From: Methanosarcina sp.
GTDB lineage: Archaea > Halobacteriota > Methanosarcinia > Methanosarcinales > Methanosarcinaceae
Reading direction: 5' to 3'
Length of the DNA: 45,330 nucleotides
Assembly: GCF_028693135.1 (NCBI RefSeq)
Contig: NZ_JAQUVZ010000028.1
Span: 1 to 45,330, forward strand
Shown here: positions 10,248-13,753 of the stretch, piece by piece
Numbering within the stretch: position 1 is the first letter of the stretch
How the letters are laid out: each line of letters opens with the position of its first letter
Notes under the pieces: generated by a model
What the model was told of the DNA's origin: nothing
Database searches by the model: none
What the model saw: only the letters and a program-made list of their open reading frames with translations
Program-made: the position numbers and the translations under genes

Positions 10248-11984
10248 TCAGTATTTTCTGCACTGGCCTTTTATAAAAATAACTGAAATTCCCGGAAGGG
10301 CGAGTTTTTCTGTGATAAGGTCCGAAAGTTCTGAAATAGGGACCGGTTTTTTTCTTTCCTTTCCTACTTCCTTTCCTGTCTCCTGCTGTGTATTACTTTT
10401 GCTTTCTTTTTCCCTGTATGAGTCTTCTTTTCTTTCTTCTCCATCTAAATCAAAAAAAGACACATCAGGCACTATCGCTTCTACCACTTTTCGCAGGTCA
10501 GGGACGTTCTGGCCTCCTGTCATGGCTGCAACTTCGTTCTGGAGCACGAGTACGAGCACTTCATAACCTTCGCTTGCAGCAGTTAAGAGCCCGAGGATGC
10601 CGGAATGTGCAAGGGCAAAGTCTCCGATTACGGCTATGCCTTTTTTCTCAAAGCCGCAGGCAACCGAGATTGCCGAGCCCAGGGCAAAGCTGACATCAAC
10701 TGCAGCAAGGGGTTCAGGGGCACTCCGGACAGAACATCCCATGTCTCCGGCAACCTGAACGTCAGGTACGCGGAGAAAATGGTAAAGGGGGAGATAGGGA
10801 CAGTCCTCGCAGATGGCAGCTCTACCTTTTTTCCCTGATTCGGTACGAACAGTATCTACGGGGACTGAGACTGTTTCTTCTTCGATGTGCTCAAGGGCAA
10901 ACTCGAGATCTTCAGGCATTATTTGCCCGTATGGGAGGTGCCCCGTCTTTTTGCCGTAGACGTTGCCTGAAATCCGGATCTGCTCTTCTATGAAAGGCTC
11001 TGATTCTTCAGCTACCAATACCCTTCGGTTATTTTTAAGGAAATTCCCGATTTTCTGCAGAGGAAGGGGGTTTACAAGGTTTAGTACAAGATGAGAAACT
11101 CCGGAATAGCAGCCTGATTTTTTCAGTGTATCTTCCACAATTGAAGCCGCAAAACCTGAGGAGATAATTCCAATCCGTTCAACTTCGTTAACTCCTTTAC
11201 TCCTTTCGACTCCTTTCTGCTCAGAAGTCTGTGCGTCTGCTTCGATCTCTTCTGTTCCACCTTTAATTTCGTTCAGGTTAGTATTTTCGGCTTCTGCTTC
11301 AAGCACCGGGTAAACTTGAGAATGAAAATGCTGGTGTTTTTCCACCATCCGGAGGCCCCAGATCGAACGGTCAAACCCGGGGTGAACAGCTGAAGATGCG
11401 GGAAGGCGCCGGACTTTTCCTTTACTTTTCTCCAGGCCTGCGGTTACCCTTATAATGACCGGGACATGGGTTTCTTCCGAAAGTTCGTAAGCCCGCCGGA
11501 GGGTTTTGTACGCTGCATCGGGATCGACCGGGTCAAACACTGCAACTTCAGCGATCCTGCCATACCAGCGGGAGTCCTGCTCATTCTGAGAGCCTTTTAC
11601 TCCGGGGTCGTCCCCTGCAATGATTACCAGACCCGCGCCTATAGTGTGCGTAACCGAGGTTATAAGGGGGTCGGAAAGCAGATTCATCCCAACGTGTTTT
11701 ACAAGCACAAGAGCCCTTTTGCCTGAAACCGACGCTCCGAGTGCTATTTCCAGCGCAACTTTCTCGTTTGTAAGCCATCTGGCTCTATAAGTTGAACTGC
11801 GTGTGGTAGTTGATGAGTTATCTGTTTTAATTGATGAAGTTGAGGAATTATCTGTTTTCAAAAAAAGTTCCATCAGGGAGGTAACAGGATATCCGGGGAC
11901 TCCTGCTATAAGTGTGACATCACTGTCAATGGCTGCAAAATAAAGGGCTTCAAACCCGTTATATAGCGCTGCTTCTTCGTTCAA
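10248..11984 (-). CDS. TPP-dependent enzyme related to indolepyruvate:ferredoxin oxidoreductase alpha
   Basis: A 578-residue protein with the domain order of IorA-type 2-oxoacid:ferredoxin oxidoreductases: an N-terminal pyrimidine-binding domain (GVPGYPVTSLMELF, then TNEKVALEIALGAS and VLVKHVGMN), a middle domain, and a C-terminal TPP-binding domain (GDMGCS, then GDFALAHSGILGLL and LQNEVAAMTGGQ). True IorA ends in a ferredoxin domain carrying two 4Fe-4S clusters; this one stops at GQCRKY with no such cysteines, and no IorB partner is adjacent. The electron acceptor and substrate are therefore uncertain. Two low-complexity inserts stand out: a serine/threonine stretch with KTDNSST twice near residues 45-65, and a lysine/glutamate-rich stretch near residue 525. 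The start is a TTG after AAGGGGGGTTCAAC. Confidence 0.8.
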   Translation of the reverse strand: MNEEAALYNGFEALYFAAIDSDVTLIAGVPGYPVTSLMELFLKTDNSSTSSIKTDNSSTTTRSSTYRARWLTNEKVALEIALGASVSGKRALVLVKHVGMNLLSDPLITSVTHTIGAGLVIIAGDDPGVKGSQNEQDSRWYGRIAEVAVFDPVDPDAAYKTLRRAYELSEETHVPVIIRVTAGLEKSKGKVRRLPASSAVHPGFDRSIWGLRMVEKHQHFHSQVYPVLEAEAENTNLNEIKGGTEEIEADAQTSEQKGVERSKGVNEVERIGIISSGFAASIVEDTLKKSGCYSGVSHLVLNLVNPLPLQKIGNFLKNNRRVLVAEESEPFIEEQIRISGNVYGKKTGHLPYGQIMPEDLEFALEHIEEETVSVPVDTVRTESGKKGRAAICEDCPYLPLYHFLRVPDVQVAGDMGCSVRSAPEPLAAVDVSFALGSAISVACGFEKKGIAVIGDFALAHSGILGLLTAASEGYEVLVLVLQNEVAAMTGGQNVPDLRKVVEAIVPDVSFFDLDGEERKEDSYREKESKSNTQQETGKEVGKERKKPVPISELSDLITEKLALPGISVIFIKGQCRKY

Positions 11985-12035
11985 GTTGAACCCCCCTTCC
12001 GGGAATTATAGGATTTTCGATAGATTCCGGCACCG

Positions 12036-12155
12036 TTTAAATATTTTTTAAACAGTTTTTGAACAGGTTTTAAACAGTTTTAAACAGTTTTAAACATGTT
12101 TTAAACAGTTTTTAAACAGTTTTTAAACAGTTTTTGAACAGTTTTTAAACAGATT
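12036..12155. repeat. Tandem repeat of TTTTTAAACAG units
   Basis: About ten imperfect 10-11 base units (TTTTAAACAG, sometimes TTTTTGAACAG) fill most of the 160-base gap between the stop of the methanogenesis marker 11 gene and the start of the IorA-like gene, both read on the minus strand. Many units contain the near-palindrome GTTTAAAC/GTTTTAAAC. The AAAAAATATTTAAA segment at its iorA-side end is a candidate TATA element for the IorA-like gene, so changes in repeat number could alter spacing of promoter elements. Confidence 0.8.
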
Positions 12156-13122
12156 TTTCCATGTTCATCGGCTTTATTTCTGTTCCGGGAATAATGGATT
12201 CTTCGGGTCTTGCGAACCAGGGCAGGGCGGCAAGAGCACCTATTACCCCGTTGCCTTCAAGCAGAACTTCCACATTGTTTTCTTCGGCGCAGCGCAGGGT
12301 GTCTGCCTTCGAGACCCTTTCGGTCCGGCAGCGGTTGCTGTATGAGTAAAGTCCTTTTGCATAAAAATCAGATAGTACTACAAGCCCTGTTTCTCTGGAT
12401 GCGCTGTATTTTTCAAGGGCTTTTTTTAAAGAGTCTACGAGCCTTGACTTCGCTTTTTCGTCCACACAGCCGAATTCCAGGACCGTTGACATGCAGTTCT
12501 GAGTCTTTTCCGGGACAGGGAAGAGCTGGACAAGGGCGTGGGAGAGGTAAACGGCTTCCTGGCAGTCCAGTTCCTTTGCGATGTTATGGGTCAGGGTCCA
12601 GGTGGCTCCTATATCCTTTGAATCGGTGTCATCTATGCCTATAAGGACGCGGTCCCTGCGGGGAACCACAACCGTCCCTCTAGCACAGCGTTCTCCTCCG
12701 GATTCGGAAATACTGTAGCGCAGAACTCCGTCTGCAAGTGCTCTGCAGCGGGTTGCACCAACGCCTCCGCCTCCCAGCCCTGCATAGGTGATCTCCACTT
12801 CGTCCCCCTGCACGATCACGGATTCTATGCCTGCGGCTGCAACCGAGGGTTTGAGTTCGAGTTTTGAGGTTCCGGTTTTCATTAAATAGCGGATCATATT
12901 TCCCGTTGAACGGGCTTTCAGGATAAGAGGAGCTTTTGCGTAATGGTAAAGGGACCAGGCTGCTCCGCTGTAGCAGTTGGAGTGTTCCATAATCTCCGCG
13001 TACTCGTTTTTCGCGTCACATACCGCATAAATGCCCCGGTAAGGTACTGTATAGGGGTCGTCCAGAGTAATCTCCTCAATCTGTCTGTTATCCAGTGCAC
13101 AGGCGTTTATATGTTTTGTAAT
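12145..13122 (-). CDS. Methanogenesis marker protein 11, probably with a non-standard ATT start
   Basis: The protein resembles methanogenesis marker 11, a family confined to methanogens and related to the TiaS N-terminal fold; IGIDDTDSKDIGATWTL is the recognisable motif. Its function is unknown. The first ordinary start in frame is the ATG at 12990 (281 residues), but the open frame continues upstream and the extra sequence looks genuine: it reads DPYTVPYRGIYAVCDAK just before that ATG. No in-frame ATG, GTG or TTG exists in this extension. A strong ribosome site, AAAAAGGAGG (GGAGG at 13131-13135), lies eight bases before an in-frame ATT at 13120-13122, and a TATA element sits at about 13194-13208. 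I therefore place the start at the ATT (325 residues). A sequence error or a frameshift remains possible. Confidence 0.78.
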   Translation of the reverse strand: MTKHINACALDNRQIEEITLDDPYTVPYRGIYAVCDAKNEYAEIMEHSNCYSGAAWSLYHYAKAPLILKARSTGNMIRYLMKTGTSKLELKPSVAAAGIESVIVQGDEVEITYAGLGGGGVGATRCRALADGVLRYSISESGGERCARGTVVVPRRDRVLIGIDDTDSKDIGATWTLTHNIAKELDCQEAVYLSHALVQLFPVPEKTQNCMSTVLEFGCVDEKAKSRLVDSLKKALEKYSASRETGLVVLSDFYAKGLYSYSNRCRTERVSKADTLRCAEENNVEVLLEGNGVIGALAALPWFARPEESIIPGTEIKPMNMEKSV

Positions 13123-13130
13123 GCCGAAGA

Positions 13131-13140
13131 CCTCCTTTTT
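13131..13140 (-). promoter_or_regulatory. Strong ribosome binding site of the marker 11 gene
   Basis: AAAAAGGAGG on the minus strand, with GGAGG ending eight bases before the in-frame ATT at 13122 and 141 bases before the first in-frame ATG at 12990. Its position decides the start call above. Confidence 0.7.
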
Positions 13141-13193
13141 ATGGGGGATAGAAAGTGGGAGGATAAATTTGTTTGGTCGAAAAGCCCATTTCC

Positions 13194-13208
13194 TATAAAT
13201 ATATATAG
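13194..13208 (-). promoter_or_regulatory. TATA box of the marker 11 gene
   Basis: TATATATATTTATA on the minus strand, about 60 bases upstream of the ribosome site. With the usual archaeal spacing of about 25 bases, transcription would begin near 13175, leaving a leader of about 50 bases. Confidence 0.6.
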
Positions 13209-13343: not shown

Positions 13344-13753
13344 TTATTTCAAGAGCCATACCATATTTTGCCCGATATTCCTCATATTCTCGATGCCTTC
13401 CTGATCCTGTTCAACTTCTCCTTTGGCATTTCCGTAAACCATGTTCCAGTAGCTTGAGCCTGCAAGGAACATTTCTTTACTGTATAAGAAGTTGTTCAGG
13501 GTGTCAAATATAAGTTGTTCAGGGTATCAAATGCGCTGATAGCTCCTCCACGGCTGGCAGCTACAACTGATGCTCCGACTTATGTTTAAAAGCCCTTTAT
13601 TTCCTGCCAGCACCATGCTGGTCCTGTCAATTAAGGCTTTCATCTGGGAAGTTACCCCAGCAAAATAGACGGGAGAACAAATAAAAATTCCATCCGAAGC
13701 CGCCATTTTTGCCAGGTACTCATTAAAAAAATCATCTGTATTGACACATTGTT
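13344..13753 (-). pseudogene. Decayed flavodoxin-like (FMN reductase / iron-sulfur flavoprotein family) gene
   Basis: Minus-strand translation recovers the second half of a flavodoxin-fold protein, but in pieces in different frames. One piece reads GIFICSPVYFAGVTSQMKALIDRT, a typical FMN-binding stretch, and runs into a frameshift near 13585. The next piece (RGGAISAFDTLNN) is in another frame and is broken by a 21-bp duplication (13489-13509 and 13512-13532, one mismatch). The tail reads YWNMVYGNAKGEVEQDQ and ends WLLK with a TAA at 13344-13346. The N-terminal half is missing where the sequence meets the radC end. The parent was probably a NADPH-dependent FMN reductase-like or iron-sulfur flavoprotein. 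Confidence 0.8.

Follow-up and report, generated by a model that had tools for sequence, protein, structure and literature searches.

Where translation of the methanogenesis marker protein 11 gene (mmp11) begins in Methanosarcina is a question raised by its reading frame in the window, by which we mean the whole 45,330-nucleotide stretch of Methanosarcina sp. DNA analysed here. The gene lies on the minus strand (Table 1), and the first ATG of its frame is located at 12990-12988, 44 codons 3' of an ATT at 13122. A scan of these 44 codons found no ATG, GTG or TTG between the two, and above the ATT 59 further codons are open in the same frame, likewise without any of the three. The match to the family HMM TIGR03280 nonetheless begins at codon 27 (position 13044), 5' of the ATG. 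From the ATT the frame comprises 325 codons and closes with a TAA at 12147-12145.

The preliminary description, made from the sequence alone, had pointed to the 44 open codons without a standard start, to a GGAGG eight bases before the ATT and to family-like coding sequence upstream of the first ATG. The open codons were confirmed on the minus strand, the GGAGG was recovered with a spacing that is invariant in 34 of 34 genomes, and the start of the TIGR03280 match bears out the coding sequence. GGAGG is the consensus RBS of Methanosarcina (PMC11409679). The protein extended to the ATT begins MTKHINACALDNR, and TKHINACALDNR is an example of a peptide within its residues 2-25.

Table 1 Features of the mmp11 locus in the window
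Feature	Position	Strand	Remark
TATA-box-like element TATATATATTTATA of the presumed new promoter	13194..13207	-	Similar A/T-rich element in relatives
Shine-Dalgarno (SD) GGAGG, inside AAAAAGGAGG	13131..13135	-	AAGGAGG in 34/34 genomes
ATT (AUU), proposed start codon	13120..13122	-	Unchanged in 34/34 genomes
Methanogenesis marker protein 11 CDS, 325 codons plus stop, TiaS-like	12145..13122	-	TIGR03280, PF22641, PF08489
Clade-specific N-terminal extension, codons 1-14, ITKHINACALDNRQ, presumably MTKHINACALDNRQ	13081..13122	-	Without counterpart in other genera
ACAAAACATATAAAC, codons 2-6, matching the BRE/TATA-like ACAAAACATTTAAA before the ATG of other genera	13105..13119	-	Same spacing
Codon 15, ATT in the window, at the canonical ATG start site of other genera	13078..13080	-	Alignment

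Conservation of the SD and the ATT codon

Homologues of mmp11 were compared in 34 genomes, namely 28 of Methanosarcina (the window included), four of a sister genus and two of more distant Methanosarcinaceae. All 34 share one pattern, AAGGAGG, 8 nt, ATT and AC[AT]AAACA[CT]A, and the ATT-bearing sequences are monophyletic in the tree (support 0.93). Column 1 uses ATT as its single codon, while two or three codons occur in each of the other six columns with invariant Ile across the same genomes, and only one codon is used in 7 of the 155 degenerate columns that are invariant in amino acid. A column that simply encoded isoleucine should have accumulated synonymous changes, and column 1 shows only ATT. 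Since the ATT is unchanged in all genomes examined, it looks like a stable feature and not a sequencing error.

No indel or stop interrupts the stretch between the ATT and the DPY block in any of the 34 genomes, and the leader upstream contains many indels and is of variable length. In five genomes (L019, L020, L027, L028 and L030), a TGA stands directly before the ATT and no ATG, GTG or TTG occurs within the 60 codons after it.

Coding evidence for the N-terminal extension

The pN/pS ratio of codons 2-9 was 0.106, compared with 0.096 in the protein body (codons 21-100). When codons 2-20 were read in the remaining two frames, the ratio was about 1.2, and the leader upstream of the ATT gave 0.67. 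Synonymous divergence was low in codons 2-9 (pS 0.22 vs 0.55), and a retained DNA element could be a partial cause of this. In the predicted structure, residues 1-12 have a pLDDT below 50, i.e. they are predicted to be disordered. The extension is missing from other genera of the family, whose proteins start MKEIEL..DPY and align at column 15.

Proposed origin of the extension from a promoter region

In ten sequences that represent other genera of the family, codon 15 of the window is matched in the alignment by a normal ATG, with stops shortly upstream, and ACAAAACATTTAAA or a near variant lies about 28 nt 5' of that ATG. The element resembles an archaeal BRE/TATA and would yield an mRNA that is leaderless or has a very short leader. 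Counted from the conserved Asp of Asp-Pro-Tyr, it falls at about -57 to -61, the place occupied in Methanosarcina by ACAAAACATATAAAC. In most Methanosarcina and in the sister genus, an A/T-rich element resembling TATATATATTTATA is found, followed by RAAATGGGC.

It thus seems that the gene has absorbed an ancestral promoter region and gained a new promoter, an SD and an AUU start. The ancestor of the ATT clade would have shifted transcription upstream to the TATA-like element at 13207-13194, with the SD and the AUU start becoming fixed. What had been promoter would have turned into the N-terminal extension of 14 codons, and the original ATG would have decayed. Read in this way, mmp11 would be a clear case of a promoter region turned into coding sequence.

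Weighing of alternative start sites

A start at a downstream canonical codon, either GTG at codon 26 or ATG 12990, with the stretch upstream serving as leader, is most unlikely. Such a start would suit most gene callers, which accept ATG, GTG and TTG alone, and codon 26 is indeed GTG in 25 of the 34 genomes; however, it is GTA in eight, the window among them, and GTC in one. The ATG at 12990 is limited to the window and its nearest relative, and the other 22 aligned homologues show Ile, Val, Leu or another non-Met residue at this site. Initiation there would also delete the conserved DPYTVPY, and the segment evolves as protein. The resemblance of ACAAAACATATAAAC to the TATA-like element of other genera, at equal spacing, and the low pS of codons 2-9 would suit a different reading, in which the conserved segment is regulatory DNA alone, still acting as BRE/TATA, and a leaderless or nearly leaderless mRNA starts at a variable non-AUG codon. 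We consider this very unlikely. The leaderless start would fall at codon 15, which is ATT, ACT, ACA, ATC, AAT or ACC within the ATT clade and so is unconserved as a start, and the invariant SD would be left without explanation. The change of CAT to CAC in seven genomes and the element reading CACAGAAA in L051 degrade the TATA box and retain the His, which indicates that the protein, not the TATA box, is maintained there.

Entry from upstream, through an in-frame ATG or through a frameshift from an upstream ORF at AAAAAGG, is highly improbable. An in-frame ATG is present 5' of the SD in seven genomes (at 21-22 codons in L007-L012, at a greater distance in L014), and initiation there is possible in principle in those species; in the window, a short frame opened by an out-of-frame ATG (13189) closes just ahead of the GGAGG. 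However, the triplet directly 5' of the ATT is TGA in 15 of the 34 genomes, which makes translation of that frame from upstream impossible in them; in addition, indels leave the upstream ORF unconserved, and the upstream ATG sits at about the expected TSS. An assembly error or a pseudogene in the window genome is hardly credible. A broken FMN reductase remnant nearby would fit such a reading, but the identical ATT is shared by 34 genomes, of which several are assembled as a single contig, and the mmp11 protein is under purifying selection. Assembly or sequence error, named in the preliminary description as a possible cause of the missing ATG, is refuted by the independent genomes with the same ATT.

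Taken as a whole, the comparisons are very probably best explained if Methanosarcina and its nearest relatives initiate mmp11 at the AUU at 13122. The earlier proposal of a methanogen gene starting at ATT is therefore upheld as the best reading by the 34 genomes, in every one of which the suggested comparison of the codon with other Methanosarcina came out positive.

Proposed mechanism of AUU initiation

In Methanosarcina, transcription starts about 23 bp 3' of the TATA box (PMC11409679), and the TATA-like element would place the TSS of mmp11 near 13170-13180, giving a leader of about 50 nt. Pairing of the GGAGG with the 16S rRNA tail would position the AUU in the P site, and initiator Met-tRNA (CAU) would read it there through a third-position mismatch. 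With the AUU decoded by this tRNA, the protein would begin Met-Thr-Lys-His. The weak codon is presumably offset by the strong, well-spaced SD, and output might be modest or sensitive to start stringency. A GGAGG spacing of 7-8 nt was common in a spacing histogram, which is noisy.

Reduced expression from the AUU start is plausible by analogy with bacterial infC. As aIF1 of Sulfolobus favours discrimination against non-canonical starts (reviewed in PMC8211752, PMC6237735), mmp11 output may, on the same analogy, depend on aIF1 stringency. In most Methanosarcina, the leader contains a CCUCC (window 13131-13164, minus strand) that is able to pair with the SD. A hairpin sequestering the SD was rejected: the folding energy was no better than that of shuffles (z -0.10), and CCTCC is missing in L016, L030, the sister genus and L050/L051.

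Relation to known AUU starts

The bacterial infC gene, encoding IF3, reportedly starts at AUU and is autoregulated through it, as Butler and also Brombach and Pon are said to have found in 1987 (both cited in the reference list of PMC9845219). Both infC and mmp11 appear to have a conserved AUU behind an SD in a broadly conserved gene (34 of 34 genomes for mmp11). In contrast, infC encodes a bacterial initiation factor, whereas mmp11 encodes a TiaS-like enzyme in an archaeal host with archaeal factors, and autoregulation is a feature of infC, whereas stringency-dependent output of mmp11 is hypothesised from the analogy. A survey of gene clusters in bacteria and archaea found switches to AUU for 1 of 61,358 ancestral AUG and 1 of 5,080 ancestral GUG starts (PMC5622118). 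AUU is a rare start both there and here; the surveyed cases were single switches, whereas the AUU of mmp11 is fixed across the genus and beyond. The rarity in archaea that had been assumed is consistent with our searches of open-access papers, in which no report of a conserved archaeal AUU start was found.

If AUU is kept genus-wide as a start, archaeal initiation tolerates this near-cognate codon and evolution can fix such starts. Gene callers restricted to ATG, GTG and TTG would then truncate mmp11 or misplace its start in these species. The gene would also offer a natural and genetically tractable test of archaeal start-codon discrimination in M. acetivorans and M. mazei.

The mmp11 protein is a TiaS-like paralogue

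The predicted protein belongs to TIGR03280, with 400.9 bits against a cut-off of 255.8 (E 2.7e-120, model positions 1-290 of 292). This family scored above the cut-off in 138 of 150 genomes of the order and is thus present across the order's methanogens. The core domains of TiaS, the tRNA-Ile2 agmatidine synthetase, were detected as well (PF22641 TiaS_TCKD, 3.2e-16; PF08489 TiaS_FLD, 2.1e-6), together with the GIDDTDS motif. In a structure model built from 23 homologues (mean pLDDT 82.8), the C-terminal half resembles TiaS (Foldseek 3u02, E 3.1e-7; also 5xob and 3amu).

Identity of mmp11 with TiaS itself was rejected, the score to NF040849 being 29.5 bits against 600, with positions 2-150 of 422 alone matched. 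Although the two proteins share TCKD, FLD and GIDDTDS, TiaS has a C-terminal OB/zinc-ribbon part to which mmp11 has no match, and mmp11 carries an additional N-terminal region of about 160 residues. The mmp11 protein is thus a TiaS-like paralogue and not TiaS; a second, weaker TIGR03280 match in the window's genome is probably the true TiaS. No paper on the function of the mmp11 family was found in the open-access literature.

A second candidate AUU start in hflX

We ran a limited screen for further genes of this kind by comparing G010 (0.4 Mb), G008 (0.4 Mb) and the window with 1.6 Mb of G030, which yielded 153 non-overlapping conserved ORF comparisons (59+83+11, repeats included). The flags took in ordinary ATG genes with a conserved leader. 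Where both genomes shared the codon and its distance to the SD, ATG was the most frequent (18) and ATT accounted for four, three of which were mmp11 and one of which lay inside an ATG gene.

A looser screen yielded hflX (TIGR03156, E 3.4e-92) and a redoxin-like ORF. In hflX, an invariant ATT stands 7-8 nt after GAGG (GAGA in two) in 30 of 30 Methanosarcina (L228-L257; the window's own genome is L253, C56). Two codons upstream of it there is a canonical ATG (12 genomes) or GTG (four genomes) that overlaps the stop of the preceding gene; this start is lost in the other 14, including the window's genome, through GTA, ATA, CTG or a one-base shift, and the ATT stays. The GAGG is only 1 nt from the ATG or GTG, which is too close, and is well spaced to the ATT. 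A related genus (L293) has ATA at this site. The AUU of hflX is thus likely to be a second start of this kind, for which the evidence is good and somewhat weaker than that for mmp11.

By family, mmp11 and hflX are both linked to tRNA or ribosome biology. That Methanosarcina recurrently uses initiation at AUU (and AUA) as a selected mode, in at least these two genes, with output tied to start-codon stringency through aIF1 or the initiator tRNA as an archaeal counterpart of infC control, is a doubtful extension that we offer tentatively.

The redoxin-like gene (L258, L259, L267, L269 and L272) lacks a usable canonical start upstream of the conserved part; in L259, a TTG alone is present and lies ahead of the SD. 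An SD of the GGGGGG type is followed by ATA or ATT, and the gene may use one of these as its start, judging from the few loci read.

Sequences flanking mmp11

Directly after the mmp11 stop, an 11-bp tandem array of TTTAAACAGTT extends over 12036-12157 in about 11 copies. Beyond it, a TPP-enzyme/IorA-like ORF (10248-12005, minus strand) seemingly starts with TTG, preceded by a G-rich SD. On the other side, between radC and mmp11, lies the broken remnant of an NADPH-dependent FMN reductase (13345-13700, minus strand; PF03358, E 3.2e-8 on a fragment), and a 23-bp tandem duplication occurs within this region at 13489-13532.
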